From contig JADFUW010000027.1 of the NCBI GenBank assembly GCA_015222205.1, forward strand, positions 1 through 63,290: a stretch of 63,290 nt of DNA, in the 5' to 3' direction. Shown here one piece after another: positions 42,713 to 52,460 of this stretch; position 1 is the stretch's first letter; each line of letters starts with the position of its first letter. Both the position numbers and the translations under genes were made by a program. The notes beneath the pieces were generated by a model. The model made no database searches and was not told the DNA's origin. It worked only from the letters and a program-made list of their open reading frames with translations. This DNA is from Chloroflexota bacterium. Lineage in GTDB: Bacteria > Chloroflexota > Dehalococcoidia > Dehalococcoidales > UBA5760.

Positions 42713-43195
42713 ATGAAAATGTCAGCTAGGCCGGGTATAGAAGAGTATTTTTTGAAGATAGCCTCGGTAGTTGCCGAACGCTCAACCTGTCGCCGGCATC
42801 ATGTTGGTGCTGTGGCGGTGAGGGATAAACACATACTGGCCACAGGCTATAATGGGGCTGCTTCTGGTCTTAAGGACTGCCTTGAGCTTGGCTGCCTCAG
42901 GGACGAGATGAATATACCGTCGGGGACACGGCACGAAATATGTCGGGGTATTCATGCCGAGCAGAATGTAATCATACAGGCTGGTCTGCATGGTGTCAGC
43001 CTTGAGGGGAGCACTATTTACTGCACCCATACGCCGTGCGTGCTGTGTGCCAAGATGCTGGTAAATGCCAGGATAAAACGGTATGTTAGTTTTGGTCGGT
43101 ATAACGATAAAGGGTTTATCAGCCTATTTAAGGAAGCCGGCATAGAGGTTGACATAAAGAAAAAGCCGCCATCCCGGATAAGCTATCTAGATTAG
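42713..43195 (+). CDS. dCMP deaminase family protein
   Basis: A 160-residue zinc deaminase: AVRDKHILATGYNGAASG, the catalytic CRGIHAEQNVI and the zinc cysteines CTHTPCVLCAKML. It makes dUMP from dCMP for thymidylate synthesis, or belongs to the related ComE/CDD-like group. Its TAG stop overlaps the opposing TAA of tyrA (TTAG), a tail-to-tail overlap. Confidence 0.9.
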   Translation: MKMSARPGIEEYFLKIASVVAERSTCRRHHVGAVAVRDKHILATGYNGAASGLKDCLELGCLRDEMNIPSGTRHEICRGIHAEQNVIIQAGLHGVSLEGSTIYCTHTPCVLCAKMLVNARIKRYVSFGRYNDKGFISLFKEAGIEVDIKKKPPSRISYLD

Positions 43196-44085
43196 TGTTC
43201 TGGTGGTGGCTTCTGTAGCGTGTCTATGAGTTTATACATATCTTCGTAAGCGCTACTAAAATCAGGATTAACCTTATTAAATTTGTCTTTCAGTACCCTC
43301 ATTTTCTGGGCGAATTCCGGTTGGTCTTTGCTTTCGACTAAGTCGGCCCAGGTTCTTACTTTTTCCTGGAACGACCTTTCGATTTCTGCCAGTTTCGGTA
43401 GATTTGTCTGTAAGGAGGCATAAAGTTCAGGGTCTTCAGTAATAACACTTTCTGTCAGGGTTACCAGCAGTTTGAAGGTGACACCACTGACTACGTCCAT
43501 CTGTTTTAACCTGTCAAAGCTAAGCAGGGTATCGGCGGAGACTATAGCAATGAAGTGGGATAGCCCCAGAACGACGGCCATGGTTTCATCGTGTTCGTTG
43601 GGACTCATTAAGATAGCTCTAGCCCCTCTGGTTTCTAGGTACTTCTTGACTCTTTGGGCTAAGGCTGTCTCTGTGTCATTAGTTGGTGTTAGGACAAAGC
43701 TTCGGTTAGCAATATCTTTAGCCCCGGGACCAAATAGGGGGTGTGCGCCAAGCACTACCCCTGCTTTTATATGTTTGTGCATGGCTGCTACGGGGGATGC
43801 TTTGATGGAGGTAATGTCTATGATGACCTGCTCAGGGCGGGTGTAAGGTCCAATCTGCTCTACAACCGCCTCAAAATTATCTATTGGTACTGATATTAAG
43901 ATAACCTGGGCATTCTCAACCGCTTCTATATTATCAGTGGTGGCTGTAATTCCTAGTCGCCGCTTGGCCTCCAGCAACTTGCCTTCGTTTCTACCGGTGA
44001 TTATTACCTCACGACCCTCTTTCAGTAGAAAACGGGTAAGCCAGCGCCCCATATTTCCTGAGCCACCAATTATTGCTACTCTCAC
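43192..44085 (-). CDS. tyrA: Prephenate dehydrogenase
   Basis: Oxidative decarboxylation of prephenate toward tyrosine. 297 residues: NAD-binding IIGGSGNMGRWLTRFL, then PIDNFEAVV, the conserved GAHPLFGPG with the substrate histidine, and LGLSHFIAIVSADTL. No ACT domain is visible. Last gene of the aro operon. Confidence 0.92.
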   Translation of the reverse strand: MRVAIIGGSGNMGRWLTRFLLKEGREVIITGRNEGKLLEAKRRLGITATTDNIEAVENAQVILISVPIDNFEAVVEQIGPYTRPEQVIIDITSIKASPVAAMHKHIKAGVVLGAHPLFGPGAKDIANRSFVLTPTNDTETALAQRVKKYLETRGARAILMSPNEHDETMAVVLGLSHFIAIVSADTLLSFDRLKQMDVVSGVTFKLLVTLTESVITEDPELYASLQTNLPKLAEIERSFQEKVRTWADLVESKDQPEFAQKMRVLKDKFNKVNPDFSSAYEDMYKLIDTLQKPPPEH

Positions 44086-44105: not shown

Positions 44106-45173
44106 TTATTTTGCCTTAGGATAAGAACCCAGGATTTTCAGAAAACGTGCCTTTGTTTCTAAACTGGCTAGAACATCTCGTGATACCTTATCTTCTCGGT
44201 GGCCTTCGAAGTCAAGGTAAAAGTTATAGTCCCAGGCCTTTTGCCTTGTTGGTCGGGATTCAATCTTGGTCAGGTTAATGTCTCTAGTAGCAAATTCTTT
44301 CAGGAAATCATAAAGTGCCCTTGGTTTATGTTTTACTGAGAAAACTATGGAGGTTTTGTCGTTCCCTGACGGTGGGCAGTCCTCCTTGGACAGAATAAAG
44401 AATCTGGTAAAATTATTCGGGTTATCTTCTATTTCACAGGTAATCGTCTTCATCTTATAGATTTCTGCCGCCCGGCTACTAGCAATGGCGCCGCCATCGG
44501 TCATCTGTTTTTCCTTTATCATCCTTACACTGCCGGCAGTATCGGTGGTAGGGATTAATTCACAGCCCAGGTGCTTTAAGAAGGTTTTGCATTGCCCCAG
44601 GGCTTGAGGGTGGGAATAAATCCTTTTGATAGCGTCCAGCCGCGTGGTGGGATTGGTTATCAGGCAGTGGGCGATTCGGAGTTCTATTTCACCACATACC
44701 TTAAGACTTGAGTCTAAAAGCAGGTCGTATGACTGGCCTACGGTACCCTCCAGTGAGTTCTCTACCGGTACGATGCCAAACTGGACATCATCTTGCTCTA
44801 CGACCTTGAAGACCTCTTCCAGGGTTTCCTGGGGCTTAGTTATTACTAGATGCCCAAAAAACTGAAGAGCCGCCCCTTCGCTATAGGCACCAAATTCTCC
44901 TTGAAAAGCAACCTCAGCACCCTGTGTCCTTCGGCACTCCCTCATTATTTGTTCGTAGATGCTCTCGATAGCTTCTTGTTCTATGTTTTCGTTCTGGGCA
45001 ATGCGTTTGATATGGTCTAAGACCCTTTTTTCCCTGGCGGTATCGTTAATTTGTTTGCCCTGTACCCGTTTCTCCTCACCGATTTCACTAGCAATCTTTA
45101 ACCGCTCACCGATTAGCCTAACAATCTCGGCATCGGTGACATCTATTTTCTTCCTTAAATCATCCAGGCTCAT
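44106..45173 (-). CDS. pheA: Bifunctional chorismate mutase/prephenate dehydratase
   Basis: Three domains in 355 residues: an AroQ chorismate mutase helix bundle ([21 protein letters not shown]) at 1-85, a prephenate dehydratase domain ([34 protein letters not shown] with the TRF motif) and an ACT domain carrying the phenylalanine-sensing ESRPTR. It therefore makes phenylpyruvate and is feedback-inhibited by Phe. It overlaps aroC by four bases. Confidence 0.96.
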
Positions 45174-46261
45174 TTTATCACCCTTAGAATTAGTCCCGCC
45201 CTCATGGCTAAATCACACAGGGTTATGGCTATCATTGATTCAACGACCACCACTGCCCGGGGTACAATGCAAATATCATGTCTTCCCTTGATGCTCAAGC
45301 TGGTATTCTCCATATCTTTGATATTCACCGTGGGCTGGTTTTTGGCTATAGATGGGGTTGGCTTAATAGCTACCCTGAGTATTATCGGCATGCCGTTACT
45401 TATGCCACCGAGAATGCCGCCGGAGTTGTTGGTTGTGGTGATTATCTTGCCATTTTTGAGGGCGAACGGGTCATTGTTCTCGGAGCCTTTTTTGCTGGCG
45501 GCGGAGAAACCGGAGCCGAACTCAACCCCCTTGACAGCGGGGATAGCCAAAAGGGCTTTAGCCAGCTCGCCATCCAGTGTATCAAATATTGGCTCTCCCA
45601 GACCAGCGGGTACATTAAGGGCTATACCTTCAATAATGCCACCGAGGCTATCCCCCTCCTTCTTAGCCTCCTCAATGGCTCTAGCCATCTCTTCGGCAGC
45701 CTCAGGGTCAGCGCAGTTTAACGAATTCTTACCCGTATTCTCTCTAATCTCGTCAAATTTCTCTGGTTTGGCGGTTATTCCCCCTATCTGGATAGTATGA
45801 GCCAGAACCTCAACACCAGCGAGGCCCAGGATTTTTCTGGCAATAGCCCCACCCATCACCAGAGTGGCGGTAATTCTTCCGGAGAATCTACCCCCGCCCC
45901 GGAAGTCGTTAAACCCCCCGTACTTCATAAAGGCGGTGTAGTCAGCCTGACCCGGCCTCGGCAGAAATCTATTTTTTTCATACTCGCTTGAGTCTATATC
46001 CTGGTTCCATACCATGAGGCAAATAGGGGCCCCGGTAGTGATACCGTTAAAGATGCCGGAAAGAATCTCTACCTTATCTGCCTCTGCCCTTGTGGTTACC
46101 GCTATACTTTTCCCTGGTCTTCTCCTATCTAGGTCTCTTTGGATATCCTCCTCAGTGATGGCTAGACCAGCAGGGCAGCCATCAATGATGGCACCCACAC
46201 ACCTACCGTGGCTTTCGCCAAAGCTGGTTATAGTAAAAAGCTTACCCAGACTATTCGCCAT
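45170..46261 (-). CDS. aroC: Chorismate synthase
   Basis: FMN-dependent final step to chorismate. 363 residues with [54 protein letters not shown] and [17 protein letters not shown]. Overlaps aroA by 11 bases. Confidence 0.97.
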
Positions 46262-47516
46262 CTACCTTCACCTCGCCGCCGATGCTTCTTAGTATCTTCC
46301 AGAAGTCGGGGAATGTCTTAGAGACACAGTCCGCTTGATTTATTACCGTTTCCCCGGTAGCCGTGCCCAGTACACCGAAAGCCATGGCAATCCGGTGGTC
46401 ATTTCTGGGGTCTATCACAGCCCCTCTCGGTCTTGAGCCGGTGATGAGCAGTCTATTTCTTTCCTCCTGGACCTTTATGCCCATTCTTTCCAAGCCTTCC
46501 CGTAAGGCTGAAACCCGGTTTGATTCCTTTATTCGGGCTCTATCTATCCCGGTAAACTCACTTGTGCCGTCGGCTACGGCCGCCAGAATAGCCACGGTCG
46601 GCAACAGGTCAATGTAGTCAGCCATATCAACCTTTATAGCCCTTAGTTCTGATTTTCTCACGGTTACCGCATTTTTGTCTATACTAACTTGCGCCCCCAT
46701 ATCTGTTAAGAAACTTAATATAATCTTATCACCCTGTAAGCTTTCTGGATTCAGGTTGTCTAGCTGCATCCACCCTGATAGCGCCCCTAGAGCCAAAAGA
46801 TATGAGGCTGAGGACCAGTCCCCCTCTACCAGGTACTTCGCCGGGGTATAGCTTTGTAGTGATATATTAAATTCCCTTAAATCCGGGGAGGTTTCTACCT
46901 TTATGCCGAACTTGCTAAGACAGTCTAGGGTCATCAGTATGAAGGGCTTTGACTCCGGTGGTGTCGTCAGTCTGATTTTAACCCCCAGCTCGGCTAGCGG
47001 GGACACGAGTAGTAGTGCCGAGACGAACTGGGAGCTTATGTTGCCGGCTAGCTCGGTTGTTCCGCCTTTCAATCTACCTCCGTGAACTATTACCGGGGCT
47101 ACCTCGCCCTGAGAGGAGCAATCTACCCCCAGTTGCCTCAGTGCCTCTAGCAATGGTTTGATTGGCCTCTGGGATAGGGAGGGGCCGGGGACTAATCGGC
47201 ATCTCCCGGGGACTTGCGAACAGATAGCCGTCATGAATCTCAAGGTGGCTGCCGAATCACCACAGAACAGGTCTATAGTTGGCTCACAGAAATTGCCTCC
47301 CAAGACCTTCCACGAATCCTCTTCCTGCTGGATATCTGCCCCGATCTTGCGTAACACATTCAGGGCAGCTTCGGTATCATCTGAGCTTAAAGGACGAACA
47401 ATTTCACTCTCGCCCTTAGCCAGGGCAGCACACATGAGTCCCCGAATGGTATAGCTCTTTGACGCCGGGGCAAAGGCCCTTCCCTCTATCTCGCTTTTAT
47501 TGATTAAGGCCTTCAT
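46251..47516 (-). CDS. aroA: 3-phosphoshikimate 1-carboxyvinyltransferase (EPSP synthase)
   Basis: Transfers enolpyruvyl from PEP to shikimate-3-phosphate. 421 residues with [16 protein letters not shown], the [13 protein letters not shown] motif (G-x-S-x-T-x-R region), and [18 protein letters not shown]. The [12 protein letters not shown] ending is complete. Overlaps aroK by 20 bases. Confidence 0.97.
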
Positions 47517-48027
47517 GCTCTTTTATCCTGGCTATTATCTGGTCGGCGGCAGAATCAATATCCAGCCTTGAAGTATCTATGGCGATGTCAGCGGCTCGCT
47601 GGTAAAATGGCTCACGAAATGTTAACAGTTCCTGGATAGCCTGGGCCGGGTTAGCCACTTTAAGGAGCGGCCTCTCTTCGGTATCGTTTGATGTCCGCTT
47701 TAGTATTACTTCCGGGGAGGTAGTGAGGTAGACTATTACGGCTTCTTTCTTTAGTCGGTCAATGTTTATTTTATTAAGGATTAACCCACCCCCACAGGCA
47801 ATCACGGCGTTTTTCTTTTGGCTAACCTCTTTAGTGACTTCAATCTCAAGCTCCCGAAAGGCTATCTCTCCGTCCTCTCGGAATACCTCGGGTATGGGCT
47901 TACCTGCCTTCTGCTCAATCAACGGGTCTAGCTCAATAAATTCCTTACCCAGTTTTCCAGCTAGGGCCCTCCCCACCACAGTTTTCCCCGTCCCCATGAA
48001 ACCAATTAGGGCGATGCTAGTTTTCAT
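47497..48027 (-). CDS. aroK: Shikimate kinase
   Basis: A 176-residue NMP-kinase-fold enzyme: Walker A GFMGTGKTVVGRALA, the shikimate-binding region ELDPLIEQKAGKPIPEVF and FRELE, and ACGGGLILN. The lid contains RPLLK. Overlaps both neighbours. Confidence 0.96.
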   Translation of the reverse strand: MKTSIALIGFMGTGKTVVGRALAGKLGKEFIELDPLIEQKAGKPIPEVFREDGEIAFRELEIEVTKEVSQKKNAVIACGGGLILNKINIDRLKKEAVIVYLTTSPEVILKRTSNDTEERPLLKVANPAQAIQELLTFREPFYQRAADIAIDTSRLDIDSAADQIIARIKEHEGLNQ

Positions 48028-48895
48028 TAGCCTCTAGTGCCTTAATGGCTTCCTTTTTCATCAGGTCAACGGGGGCTTTTTGTCCCGTCCACTTCTCAAA
48101 GGCCAAAGCCCCTTGCCAGACCAGCATATCAAGCCCGCCGATAGTTTTGGCACCAGCTGCCCCTGCCTCTCTCAGTAACCTCGTCTTTAGCGGGTTATAC
48201 ACGACATCAAAAACAACCAGGCTAGATTTTAGCAGTTTAGCTGGAACGAGGGTGTCATCAATATTCGGACTCATGCCGATACTGGTGGCATTAATCAGCA
48301 CATCGGCTCCTTCCAGTGCCGTTGCTAGATTTTCCTCATCCAGTTCTAGTGCGTTAACCTCTTTCTTAAAGGTATTAAAGATTTCCTGAGCTAGCTCCTC
48401 TGCCCAGTCTAATTCCAGTGGGCGGTTAAGGATAACCAGATTAGCCCCCCTATCAGCAAGAATAAAGGAAATCGCTCTTGAGACACCACCTGCCCCTAGG
48501 ATGACTATGTTTTTTCCCTCCGGCTCGACCCCCTTATCCCGTAGTGCTTGCAGGAATCCGGTGGCATCGGTATTATAGCCCCTTAAAACACCGTCGTCAC
48601 TCACTATGGTATTAACGGCACCTATCTTTTGGGCCAGGGGGTCTAGTTCATCCAGAAATGGAATGACTGCCACCTTGTGGGGTATAGTGACATTTAAGCC
48701 CCTTATATTCAGGGCTGTCATTCCATGAATTGCCTTACCCAGTTCTTCTTTTCTTACCCGGAAAGCAATATAAATATAATCTAACCCCAACTCTTTAAAG
48801 GCGGCATTATGCATCACCGGTGACATAGTGTGCTCTATAGGGTCACCGATTACACCACAGATTCGTGTTTTCCCCGATATAACCATATTTCTCAT
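48017..48895 (-). CDS. aroE: Shikimate dehydrogenase
   Basis: NADP-dependent reduction of 3-dehydroshikimate. 292 residues with IGDPIEHTMSPVMHNAAF, NVTIPHKVAVIPFLDEL (catalytic Lys), GAVNTIVSDDGVLRGYNTD, and nucleotide-binding VILGAGGVSRAISFIL. GGLDMLVWQGALAFEKWTG ends the domain. The first ATG or the one three codons later may be the start. Confidence 0.96.
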   Translation of the reverse strand: MRNMVISGKTRICGVIGDPIEHTMSPVMHNAAFKELGLDYIYIAFRVRKEELGKAIHGMTALNIRGLNVTIPHKVAVIPFLDELDPLAQKIGAVNTIVSDDGVLRGYNTDATGFLQALRDKGVEPEGKNIVILGAGGVSRAISFILADRGANLVILNRPLELDWAEELAQEIFNTFKKEVNALELDEENLATALEGADVLINATSIGMSPNIDDTLVPAKLLKSSLVVFDVVYNPLKTRLLREAGAAGAKTIGGLDMLVWQGALAFEKWTGQKAPVDLMKKEAIKALEANEN

Positions 48896-48923: not shown

Positions 48924-49580
48924 TCATCCTGACATTATTTGGTATATTTTTGTCAGGTGGCTTACCGTTATTTGGCCGGGGGCAGATTCTTTACCCTCCC
49001 CGATGGAGGCATAGGTAAAATATCCCCCGACCAGGGGACAAAAAACCCGACTGGTAAAACCCAAGGGACCCATAGCAAACGAAACTATCTTTACCTCGGG
49101 AAACTCAGCGATGAGCTTGAGGGTGGTCAGGTTGTCCTTAAAGCTCTGTGCCGTGGTAATCACCTTGCATACATCGGCGCCAGCGGCTAGCTCTCTTTGA
49201 ACTATCTCCTTTAGCCTGTTAAGTGGAGGCGTTTTCTTAAGCTCATGAAGCGACACCAGGCACCTGGCTCGCCTCTTAATTAATGGGATAGCCGTCGCTA
49301 GATTTTTTGTTCTAAGCTCAATATCAACTATATTTGCCCCCAGCTCAACGGCCCTAATAAGCTCCTCTATTCTACCAGCTTCATCCCTTTGCCACCGTCC
49401 ACCCTCGTCTGACATTCTATTACAGGCTATCCAGGGTTTCCTAAGCTGCTTGGCTAAATTCGGCCACCCCCCGCCAATTAAGTCTATGCGAACCTCAAAT
49501 AGCTCTACGAGAGGCTCAACCTTTCTTATTGCTGATAGGTCATCTTTTATAATTGCAGCACAAATCCTCGGTTTTTTCAT
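48924..49580 (-). CDS. aroD: 3-dehydroquinate dehydratase type I
   Basis: A 218-residue class I dehydroquinase with TIM-barrel fold. Visible features are VELFEVRIDLI, VSLHEL with the catalytic histidine, and GADVCKVITTAQS with the Schiff-base lysine. The C-terminal part has SFAMGPLGFTSRVFCPLVGG. Confidence 0.94.
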   Translation of the reverse strand: MKKPRICAAIIKDDLSAIRKVEPLVELFEVRIDLIGGGWPNLAKQLRKPWIACNRMSDEGGRWQRDEAGRIEELIRAVELGANIVDIELRTKNLATAIPLIKRRARCLVSLHELKKTPPLNRLKEIVQRELAAGADVCKVITTAQSFKDNLTTLKLIAEFPEVKIVSFAMGPLGFTSRVFCPLVGGYFTYASIGEGKESAPGQITVSHLTKIYQIMSG

Positions 49581-49595: not shown

Positions 49596-50669
49596 TTAAT
49601 CTAATAAAACCTGCTCTATTAAAGATAGGTTTACTTCGTCGGTGATAAATACCTTGCCTAGGACTTCGGGTAAGATGAACCTTATCTTACCCATTAAAAC
49701 CTTCTTGTCGTGTTGCATCGCCGAAATTAGTTCTTCTACTTTAAGCTCTGGGAGTTTGGTTGGCAAGCCAGCCTGCTTAATAAGGCTTTCTAGTCTGAGT
49801 AATTCATTTTCACTGAGTATTCCCATCTTGTTTGAAATTCTGGCGGCGGCTATCATCCCAATAGCTACTGCCTCACCGTGTCCTACTCTGAAGTCTGAGG
49901 CTGATTCAATGGCATGTCCCACCGTATGACCGTAGTTTAAAATAGCTCTTAGATTTAAGTCCTTCTCATCCTTAGCCACTACTTCAGCTTTAATTTCAGC
50001 TGACCGGAAGATAATCTCCTCAAGTGCCTCCTCATTGAGTGATTTTATTCTGTCAATGTTTTTCTCAAGATAGGTAAGGAATCCTTTATCCCAGATAACC
50101 CCGTATTTTATCACCTCGGCTAAACCGTCACTGAGTGTTTTGTTATCAAGTGTTTTTAGGGTATCAATATCAGTAATTACTAGCCTTGGTTGATAAAATG
50201 CCCCGATTTTGTTTTTCAGCTGACCGTGGTCTACGGCCACCTTACCCCCGATACTGCTATCAACCTGTGCCAGCAGGGTAGTTGGTATCTGTATTAGTGG
50301 TACCCCTCGTAGGTACGTAGCCGCTACGAATCCAGCTAAGTCGCCGATAACACCACCGCCTAAGGCTAGAATAGGTGTTGTCCTTTCTGCATGGCAATTG
50401 GCTAATTCATGGTATAGCCTGCCGGCGGTCTCCAGTGATTTTTGCTCCTCCCCGTCGGGAACCTGTAGGGTAGTTACCGTGAAGCCCTCTGGAGTCAGGC
50501 TTTGCTCTAGAGCCTCGCCATACAGACCTTTCACGACAGGGTTGGTGATAATCACCACCTTGTCAACAAAGCCGGCTTTCTTTAGTTTACGGCCGGTTTG
50601 GGAAAGTATTCCGGAATCTATATGGGCCTCGTAGCTGTTACTGCCTAGTTTTATCTTAACTTTCTTCAT
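49596..50669 (-). CDS. aroB: 3-dehydroquinate synthase
   Basis: A 357-residue NAD- and zinc-dependent enzyme: PDGEEQKSLETA, GGGVIGDLAGFVAATYLRGV, IPTTLLAQVDSSIGGKVAVD and the metal ligand motif NYGHTVGHAIE. Overlaps aroF by 14 bases. Confidence 0.96.
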   Translation of the reverse strand: MKKVKIKLGSNSYEAHIDSGILSQTGRKLKKAGFVDKVVIITNPVVKGLYGEALEQSLTPEGFTVTTLQVPDGEEQKSLETAGRLYHELANCHAERTTPILALGGGVIGDLAGFVAATYLRGVPLIQIPTTLLAQVDSSIGGKVAVDHGQLKNKIGAFYQPRLVITDIDTLKTLDNKTLSDGLAEVIKYGVIWDKGFLTYLEKNIDRIKSLNEEALEEIIFRSAEIKAEVVAKDEKDLNLRAILNYGHTVGHAIESASDFRVGHGEAVAIGMIAAARISNKMGILSENELLRLESLIKQAGLPTKLPELKVEELISAMQHDKKVLMGKIRFILPEVLGKVFITDEVNLSLIEQVLLD

Positions 50670-51726
50670 TTTTTCTTGGCTTAGTTAGTTTGTGGATTTC
50701 TCGGCAGGTATTGATGACTTCTTTAAGTTCATCAGGGGTGATTGCCTGTTGGGCATCAACTAGAGCCTCTGCCGGATTGTAGTGCATCTCAATCATGAGT
50801 CCGCTGGCTCCGGCGGCGATAGCGGCGCAGCACATATTAAAGATGAGGTCCCGACGTCCCGAGGCATGACTGGGGTCAACAATTACCGGCAGATAGGTTT
50901 CTTTCTGAATCACGGGAACGGCAGATAGGTCTAGGGTATATCGGGTGTAGTTTTTACCTTTACCTATGGGTAGTATGCCTCTTTCACAGAGAATAATGTC
51001 TTTATTACCCTCGGCGGCGATATATTCAGCAAAAGACAGGAATTCTTCAATACCGGCACCGAAATGGCGTTTAAATAAAATGGGCTTCTTTGTCCTGGCT
51101 ATCTTGGTTAGCAGGTCCTGATTATACATGTTTCTAGACCCTATTTGGAGTATGTCGGCATACTCAGCGGCTAGGTCGACCTGTGTTTCCCCTCTTACTT
51201 CAGTCACCGTGGCTAGATTAAACCTTTCTCCAGCTTCACGTAGCCAGGCTAAAGCCTCTCTGGCTTCTTCCCAGCCTATGGAGCCCAGGCCCTGGAAAGA
51301 GTGAACTGAGCTCCTTGGTTTAAAGATGCCCCCCCTTAGAATATGAGCTCCGGCCTTCTTGGCCTCTTCGGCAATTCTTAGTAGTTGTCTGTGGCTCTCC
51401 ACGGCACAGGGTCCGGCAATGAATACGGGTTCGCTGCCACCTATCTCAATGTCACCCACCTTGATTATTGAGTGTTCCATTTCATCTTCAAGGAATTTAC
51501 TGTATTCCTTGCTGATTAGTTTATAGGGGACTTCAACCATTGTTGCCTCCTTCACCCCGGGGAAAGTGGCAAAGTGTTCGAATGGCGCTTTATTCTCATC
51601 GCCAACTAAGCCGATTATGGTTCGGTATTTCCCCTTGGAGACATCGGCTCTCAATCCGTATTTCTTTATTTCTTTCACTACCTGGGTTACTTGTTCTGGC
51701 GTTGCGTCAGTTTTCATTATAATCAT
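50656..51726 (-). CDS. aroF: DAHP synthase, type I-beta with N-terminal ferredoxin-like regulatory domain
   Basis: First committed step of the shikimate pathway: PEP plus erythrose-4-phosphate to DAHP. Residues 1-75 form a ferredoxin-like regulatory domain known in Thermotoga-type enzymes for Tyr/Phe inhibition; the barrel shows FIAGPCAVES, FKPRSSVHSFQGLG, LFKRHFGAGIEE and VDPSHASGRRDL. It heads the nine-gene operon and has a strong ribosome site (GGGAGGGGG). It lies directly downstream of an aromatic leader peptide and terminator. Confidence 0.96.
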   Translation of the reverse strand: MIIMKTDATPEQVTQVVKEIKKYGLRADVSKGKYRTIIGLVGDENKAPFEHFATFPGVKEATMVEVPYKLISKEYSKFLEDEMEHSIIKVGDIEIGGSEPVFIAGPCAVESHRQLLRIAEEAKKAGAHILRGGIFKPRSSVHSFQGLGSIGWEEAREALAWLREAGERFNLATVTEVRGETQVDLAAEYADILQIGSRNMYNQDLLTKIARTKKPILFKRHFGAGIEEFLSFAEYIAAEGNKDIILCERGILPIGKGKNYTRYTLDLSAVPVIQKETYLPVIVDPSHASGRRDLIFNMCCAAIAAGASGLMIEMHYNPAEALVDAQQAITPDELKEVINTCREIHKLTKPRKNEES

Positions 51727-51797: not shown

Positions 51798-51831
51798 AAA
51801 ATAGAAGAACCCCCCTTGCTTGGGAGGGTTC
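51798..51831 (-). terminator. Intrinsic terminator in the aro leader (attenuator)
   Basis: On the minus strand GGAACCCTCC...GGGGGGTTC forms a 9-bp stem (one G-U) with a 7-nt loop, followed by TTCTATTTT. It lies about 70 bp before aroF and after the leader peptide stop, so it should block aro transcription when formed. Confidence 0.88.
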
Positions 51832-51894
51832 CTGAATTTCTATAGTCTACTTTTACTGTCTTATGATATTTTCTTAAACGCTGTCCCCCCAAGC
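51818..51894 (-). promoter_or_regulatory. Antiterminator pairing of the aro leader
   Basis: GCTTGGGGGG (51894-51885), inside the last codons of the leader ORF, is complementary over 10 bp (one G-U) to CCTCCCAAGC (51827-51818), which includes most of the terminator's 5' arm and loop. The two structures are mutually exclusive. A ribosome that reaches the leader stop would cover the first segment and allow termination. Confidence 0.82.
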
Positions 51895-51963
51895 GCACCT
51901 TGTGCGCCAGCTAAACGCGAAATAAGTATAATACACTCCCTGGAGGGCAGCATAGCTTAGCAT
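51874..51963 (-). CDS. Aromatic-rich leader peptide of the aro operon
   Basis: A 29-codon ORF absent from the track, starting MLSYAALQGVYYTYFAFSW and ending in CAWGDSV-stop. Codons 4-19 hold four Tyr, two Phe and one Trp, and a second Trp is near the end: eight aromatics in 29. A ribosome site (GAGGT, 10 nt upstream) and a promoter are in place. Hairpin GCGCAC-AAG-GTGCGC (51907-51893) begins at the SW codon, serving as the pause hairpin of classical attenuators. Stalling at uncharged tRNA-Tyr, -Phe or -Trp would break this hairpin and permit antitermination. Confidence 0.85.
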   Translation of the reverse strand: MLSYAALQGVYYTYFAFSWRTRCAWGDSV

Positions 51964-51993
51964 AATAATACTTACCTCATTTCCTTCTAGCTT

Positions 51994-52022
51994 AGCCTAT
52001 CACAAGGGATATGGTTTGTCAA
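51994..52022 (-). promoter_or_regulatory. Promoter of the aro leader/operon
   Basis: TTGACA (52022-52017), 17 nt, TAGGCT (51999-51994) on the minus strand. The predicted transcript starts near 51987, about 24 nt before the leader ATG. Confidence 0.7.
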
Positions 52023-52154: not shown

Positions 52155-52460
52155 ATGGTGGACAGGGAGTTTTTCCTGGGATTTATTAAGATTCACATCC
52201 TATATCACGCTTCCAAGGAGCCAATCTTTGGCGTGGAAATAGCCAAGGAGCTGGCAAGACACGGCTATAATGTCAGCCCGGGCACCCTGTATCCGGTGCT
52301 GCACCGCCTGGAAAAAGAGGGCTATCTGGAGAGCAGCCCCAGGTTAGTTAATGGCAGAGTAAGGAAATACTACCAGGCTACTGGCGAGGGAAAGAGGGCA
52401 CTGGTGCAGTCGAGAAAGAAAATCAGGGAACTGGTGACTGAGGTCTTATATGATAGATAG
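52155..52460 (+). CDS. PadR family transcriptional regulator
   Basis: A 101-residue winged-helix regulator: HILYHASKEPIFGVEIAKEL, YNVSPGTLYPVLHRLEKEGYL and the wing ending GRVRKYYQATGEGKRAL. The short C-terminus marks subfamily 2. It sits 39 bp upstream of an MFS exporter and would repress it until a ligand binds. Confidence 0.9.
   Translation: MVDREFFLGFIKIHILYHASKEPIFGVEIAKELARHGYNVSPGTLYPVLHRLEKEGYLESSPRLVNGRVRKYYQATGEGKRALVQSRKKIRELVTEVLYDR

Follow-up and report, generated by a model that had tools for sequence, protein, structure and literature searches.

A predicted Tyr/Phe leader-peptide attenuator upstream of the nine-gene aro operon in Dehalococcoidales

Leader peptides and tRNA sensors in aromatic amino acid biosynthesis

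The trpL and pheL leaders of E. coli share with the aro leader considered here the 1:2, 2:3 and 3:4 pairing logic, the position of arm 2 under the terminating ribosome, and a pause hairpin; they differ in that each senses one amino acid and serves a branch operon, and their sequence is unrelated. Leaders with several different regulatory amino acids are those of the E. coli ilvGMEDA and thrABC operons, which belong to other pathways.

As for the entry of the pathway, two systems located before aroF have been described. In the aroR-aroF attenuator of Corynebacterium glutamicum (Neshat et al. 2014), as described in later papers, the aroR leader, with its Phe-Tyr-Phe stretch, precedes the aroF operon and acts through ribosome-mediated attenuation (PMC11802643, PMC4046766); this organism belongs to the Actinobacteria and the F-Y-F run is short, and on that account of it the resemblance to the aro leader is one of mechanism and gene only. 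The other system is the uORFC-13-1 motif of Acholeplasma, with 24 representatives, for which attenuation was proposed: it consists of a uORF before aroF with a promoter, an RBS, and an adjacent intrinsic terminator; it differs from the aro leader in its occurrence, Acholeplasma and environmental sequences, and in its U run, which encodes at least one Phe, while a Tyr-rich run was not described for it (PMC8632094). Finally, a Trp T-box was reported earlier on the trpE gene of Dehalococcoides (PMC2494555; RF00230): like the mechanism proposed below for the aro leader, it couples aromatic biosynthesis to tRNA charging, and it does so in related genomes, but it binds the tRNA directly, without a leader peptide, and it controls the trp operon and not the aro genes.

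Regarding taxonomic range, peptide leaders had been known in Proteobacteria and Actinobacteria alone until a survey of 2010, which added the Firmicutes (PMC2965389). The literature searched, from which most subscription papers are absent, yielded no account of such a leader in Dehalococcoides, Dehalococcoidia or Chloroflexota. An earlier note on this DNA had stated that the classical leaders sit on branch operons, which was too strong in view of aroR and of the Acholeplasma motif; since both precede aroF, there are precedents for attenuation at the entry of the pathway. The same note had considered the design undescribed, and this holds for Chloroflexota within the literature searched, not for the position at the pathway entry. 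The aro leader is apparently undescribed, and its mechanism is classical.

The aro leader and its operon

The sequence analyzed, hereafter the window, is a stretch of 63,290 nucleotides from a Chloroflexota bacterium of the order Dehalococcoidales (contig JADFUW010000027.1). All the attenuator parts, from the promoter to the terminator, were found on its minus strand, between 52022 and 51798, and are listed together with the genes of the operon in Table 1. The ORF, its Tyr/Phe run, the three pairings, the promoter, the terminator and the operon are all shown by the comparison of sequences among relatives.

Table 1. Features of the aro leader and of the downstream operon in the window
Feature	Position	Strand	Evidence or remark
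-35 element TTGACA	52017..52022	(-)	perfect consensus; TTGACA-type promoter at the corresponding site of 84/87 homologous leaders
-10 element TAGGCT	51994..51999	(-)	17-bp spacer; TGA in front (extended -10); 3/6 consensus bases
SD-like stretch GGAAATGAGGT, with GAGGT	51974..51984	(-)	sequence
Leader peptide ORF, 29 codons, MLSYAALQGVYYTYFAFSWRTRCAWGDSV	51874..51963	(-)	homologues in 87/89 distinct upstreams
Regulatory codon run YYTYFAFSW, codons 11-19	51907..51933	(-)	sequence, homologues, shuffles
Arm 1 GCUGCCCUCC (codons 5-8), protector, partner of arm 2	51942..51951	(-)	MFE fold; cognate vs permuted z -7.4
Small hairpin GGCGCAC-AAG-GUGCGCUU, candidate pause hairpin	51891..51908	(-)	sequence; covariation counts
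Arm 2 GCUUGGGGGGACAGC, alternative partner of arm 1 and arm 3	51880..51894	(-)	overlaps leader ORF end
Arm 3, terminator 5' arm AGGAACCCTCCCAAGC	51818..51833	(-)	last 10 nt are the antiterminator partner of arm 2
Arm 4, terminator 3' arm GGGGGGTTCTT	51805..51815	(-)	sequence
U-rich tail CTATTTT	51798..51804	(-)	sequence
aroF, DAHP synthase	50656..51726	(-)	NF006421 and TIGR01361 above cut-off
aroB, 3-dehydroquinate synthase	49596..50669	(-)	TIGR01357
aroD, type I 3-dehydroquinate dehydratase	48924..49580	(-)	TIGR01093, 130 bits vs cut-off 139; position kept in relatives
aroE, shikimate dehydrogenase	48017..48895	(-)	TIGR00507
aroK, shikimate kinase	47497..48027	(-)	NF010553 best match, 177 bits vs cut-off 204
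aroA, EPSP synthase	46251..47516	(-)	TIGR01356
aroC, chorismate synthase	45170..46261	(-)	TIGR00033
pheA, chorismate mutase/prephenate dehydratase	44106..45173	(-)	NF008865 and chorismate mutase models
tyrA, prephenate dehydrogenase	43192..44085	(-)	NF006409

Regarding the operon, its genes all lie on the minus strand and overlap or are closely spaced from aroF to tyrA (51726 to 43192). Seven of the nine match an enzyme-specific NCBIfam model above the curated cut-off; aroD and aroK fall under theirs, with no competing assignment for either. The order aroF-B-D-E-K-A-C-pheA-tyrA is kept in the genomes G016, G012, G072, and G025, and in G013 it is the same through pheA, where the contig ends; the model matches and the order kept in these five further genomes support the nine-gene operon that had been proposed behind the leader. 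Divergent from the leader, at 52155-52460 (+), the window encodes a short protein that resembles a PadR-type winged-helix regulator, as judged by its sequence alone.

The 29-codon aromatic ORF claimed ahead of aroF is present, and its codons 11-19 contain three Tyr, two Phe and one Trp; an ORF with 6 aromatic residues within 9 codons never arose when the 428-nt region was dinucleotide-shuffled 1000 times. The shared promoter suggested for the operon was recognized as well: the pattern TTGACA-N16-18-TAnnnT occurs upstream of 84 of the 87 homologous leaders, and the window's own promoter is below the threshold of a simple promoter scanner because its -10 element is weak.

As for the RNA, the stem of the small hairpin, GGCGCAC/GTGCGCTT (51908-51891), has a stability of -10.2 kcal/mol; the antiterminator is formed by 10 bp between GCUUGGGGGG (51894-51885) and CCUCCCAAGC (51827-51818), with one G-U; and the intrinsic terminator, AGGAACCCTCCCAAGCAAGGGGGGTTCTT followed by CTATTTT (51833-51798), reaches -16.6 kcal/mol. 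Thus, the pause-type hairpin, the antiterminator and the terminator, which the earlier note had described as mutually exclusive, were all located in the sequence. A third alternative helix, involving an arm 1 that was absent from the list in that note, appears when the complete leader is folded (minimum-energy structure, z = -2.45 versus shuffles): GCUGCCCUCC in codons 5-8 pairs with GGGGGGACAGC, where the ORF ends, which is the arm 1:arm 2 helix. Two partners, arm 1 and arm 3, are thus open to arm 2, and arm 3 has arm 4 as its other partner, as in the three-way choice of classical attenuators.

With these elements, the locus is very probably a ribosome-mediated transcription attenuator, through which the supply of charged tRNA-Tyr and tRNA-Phe would set the expression of aroF-B-D-E-K-A-C-pheA-tyrA; stalling, pausing and the physiological response to Tyr and Phe are what we infer, as follows. 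With both tRNAs charged, the ribosome would pass the Tyr/Phe run, proceed to the UAA at 51874, and cover arm 2, so that the arm 3:arm 4 terminator would form and transcription would end before aroF. With charged Tyr- or Phe-tRNA in short supply, the ribosome would stall in codons 11-17, covering arm 1 and not arm 2; arm 2, being free, would pair with arm 3 into the antiterminator and the operon would be transcribed. When there is no translation, arm 1 would pair with arm 2, and the terminator would form by default. Finally, RNA polymerase is probably held for a time at the hairpin that separates the run from arm 2, and so kept in step with the ribosome.

Conservation of the leader and of its pairings

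Orthologues of aroF, defined by 60% identity or more, were gathered from four sources: relatives, the whole order, the class, and named genome records; the order-level collection covers 94 of 156 genomes, and the titles of the named records are mostly Dehalococcoidales, Dehalococcoidia or Chloroflexi. The aromatic leader is present in 87 of the 89 distinct upstream regions of these orthologues, nearly all within one order; it is missing at L054, upstream of the second aroF copy of its genome, and at L055, on an archaeal-labelled contig. Homologous leaders devoid of the aromatic codons or of the alternative helices had been named beforehand as the finding that would speak against the proposal; on examination, this was not what the homologous leaders showed. 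All 87 accepted leaders contain Tyr and 85 contain Phe, for a total of 345 Tyr, about 183 Phe and about 64 Trp residues in the runs, where the codon totals are 206 TAT, 139 TAC, 150 TTT, 34 TTC and 66 TGG. The runs span from YYYF to YYYYYFMFW, the former being that of three Dehalococcoides-like genomes, with 19-28 reductive dehalogenase matches each, which are presumably Dehalococcoides.

Within the run, TAT and TAC, as well as TTT and TTC, interchange synonymously among leaders: pairs of similar leaders differ by 206 synonymous versus 145 non-synonymous changes at the Tyr/Phe codons, and by 86 versus 581 at the six codons that precede the run. The peptide is poorly conserved outside the aromatic run. 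Regarding the start of the transcript, about one leader in four has a -10 element that ends only 6-9 nt upstream of the ATG, with no SD visible; L114, L117, L118, L123, L127 and L131 are of this kind, with others, those of Dehalococcoides-like genomes included. Because of this short distance and of the SD not being seen, the mRNA of the leader peptide is probably leaderless in these cases.

Outside the order, the other families of the same class have a leader in 1 of 19 cases, L216 (genome G066), where MIGDGYGYYYFSYPPRGGLPTSFV and a strong terminator lie about 210 to 134 nt upstream of a distant-type aroF. Upstream of the distant DAHP synthases of other phyla (42-58% identity) there are a few weak ORFs at chance level, and the only convincing leader is L078, in an aroF-aroB-aroD cluster of Calditrichota. 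This leader, MASTERLNHFFGFYFGYYYWTQ, is located 175 to 106 nt upstream of aroF and has the element TCTACTGAGAGG three times, two direct and one inverted, which could form all the alternative helices; it is apparently independent of the Dehalococcoidales one.

As for the terminators, they were located leader by leader because their loop lengths differ: 81 of 87 leaders passed a first script and three more a relaxed rule, giving 84 of 87 (L011, L025 and L044 did not pass), and comparable hairpins occur in 1.2% of dinucleotide shuffles. The antiterminator duplex is more stable between cognate arms (-21.0 kcal/mol) than between non-cognate ones (-17.9 kcal/mol; z = -9.6), and the same is true for the arm 1:arm 2 duplex (-17.6 versus -15.0 kcal/mol when permuted; z = -7.4), with 0 of 5000 permutations matching the cognate value in either case; these permutation and shuffle controls leave shared ancestry in, and the changes are nonetheless spread over many genera. 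On an alignment of 47 sequences, 92% of the antiterminator cells are paired and double changes number 28, where shuffled data give 9.3; the covariation score is 0.276, compared to at most 0.150 for versions slid by one to three columns; the small hairpin has paired changes too, with a weaker signal. Both the antiterminator and the protector pairing thus covary.

Concerning geometry, the arm 2 duplex ends anywhere from 28 nt short of the leader ORF's end to 15 nt beyond it, a position at which the terminating ribosome would cover arm 2 in most leaders. In addition, arm 2 is translated in differing frames, giving RCAWE in some leaders and VRLGG in others, and it is therefore preserved as RNA and not as peptide. 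The run of end-product codons, the terminator before the first gene, the covarying antiterminator, and the position of arm 2, that is, the features by which a leader-peptide attenuator is recognized from sequence, were all found; together, the conserved run, the terminators, and the cognate and covarying pairings support the leader peptide with its terminator/antiterminator switch.

Alternative readings, amino acids sensed, and the trp operon

A small ORF so widely conserved, with a promoter in front, might be a functional micropeptide, the hairpin merely terminating a short transcript; however, the conservation is weak outside the run, the C-terminal part is translated in differing frames while the RNA arm is unchanged, and the cognate covariation ties the 3' end of the ORF to the terminator, leaving this explanation very improbable. 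Hardly more credible is a metabolite- or tRNA-binding riboswitch, either a T-box or an aptamer for an aromatic ligand, that controls the terminator: a structured 5' leader with a terminator and an antiterminator would suit it, and T-boxes exist on the trp operons of related genomes, but no Rfam family matches the leader at gathering scores or at E up to 1, and the conserved parts are the codons and the arms, while the spacer is long and variable in both sequence and length. As for the T-box family specifically (RF00230), neither its sequence and specifier loop nor an Rfam match was found in the aro leader; most trpE upstream regions examined in relatives do have them.

Taking the leader-peptide attenuator as the preferred reading, the simplest view is that it would sense Tyr and Phe, the end products of its own operon, and the conservation of both residues, with their synonymous swaps, supports this part of the original proposal at the level of comparative sequence. 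It should be noted that the C. glutamicum aroR leader (Phe-Tyr-Phe) is reported to respond to the availability of Phe and not of Tyr (PMC11802643); therefore, Tyr codons alone do not prove a response to Tyr. The original proposal went further, with a leader that integrates all three aromatic amino acids, and in its favor about 61 of 87 leaders have Trp within the run or bordering it, Trp takes 16 of the 167 run positions that are not Tyr or Phe (9.6%, above the usual protein content), and it is internal in runs such as YYWYY and FFWGYYY. However, most Trp codons fall in RNA helices: both those of the window do, one in the 5' arm of the hairpin (TGG-CGC) and one in arm 2 (GCT-TGG-GGG), and among the leaders 32 occur two codons past the last Tyr/Phe (+2; TGGCGC, in the hairpin arm) and 20 eight codons past it (+8; GCTTGG, in arm 2; GCT-TGG-GAG), fixed sites that are accounted for by the RNA structure. 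Beyond this constraint, no conserved Trp codon was found in the run, internal Trp being a trait of a minority of lineages; the run is without Trp in about 30% of the leaders, including those of the Dehalococcoides-like genomes and of G004, a 98% complete genome of the window's own genus. Moreover, a hand tally gave no association between Trp in the leader and the presence of one or two DAHP synthases per genome, and a T-box with a UGG specifier lies upstream of trpE in most relatives examined. Integration of all three amino acids is accordingly unlikely; Trp may contribute in some species, but little at best.

Regarding the trp operon, the incomplete genome to which the window belongs gave no trpE; therefore, the statements that follow rest on relatives. 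Among ten trpE upstream regions (L137-L146), eight match the Rfam T-box above the gathering score, with UGG at the specifier position; in L144 the T-box sequence is visible by eye, and it was not called by the Rfam search. L141, from a relative outside the order (G072), has instead of the T-box a Trp leader peptide, MVKAYSNITPVRNTNNWWWRNMLLHVREDIA, starting from about 1164, with a GGGAGG/CCTCC arm and a terminator of the same kind as in the aro leader; it may be the aro design in recoded form.

Behind its Trp T-box, the trp operon of G016 (L193, 1536-8240) and of G012 (L195, 1425-8502) encodes, just before trpB, a second DAHP synthase, which shares about 45% identity with the aroF product of the window. 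On balance, it seems slightly favored that the entry isozymes of Dehalococcoidales are placed on different tRNA-charging sensors: the first DAHP synthase, together with the complete common pathway and both the Phe and the Tyr branch, on the Tyr/Phe leader attenuator, and the second, in the trp operon, on the Trp T-box. At least one relative not belonging to the order would have, in place of this T-box, a Trp leader peptide built on the RNA design of the aro leader.

In conclusion, the aro leader would extend peptide-leader attenuation to the Chloroflexota, with strong comparative support, and it marks a defined and testable point of control over the whole aromatic pathway for an order with organohalide-respiring bacteria of use in bioremediation. 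It also provides a natural comparison between a leader peptide and a T-box, two tRNA-charging sensors that may share out one pathway.
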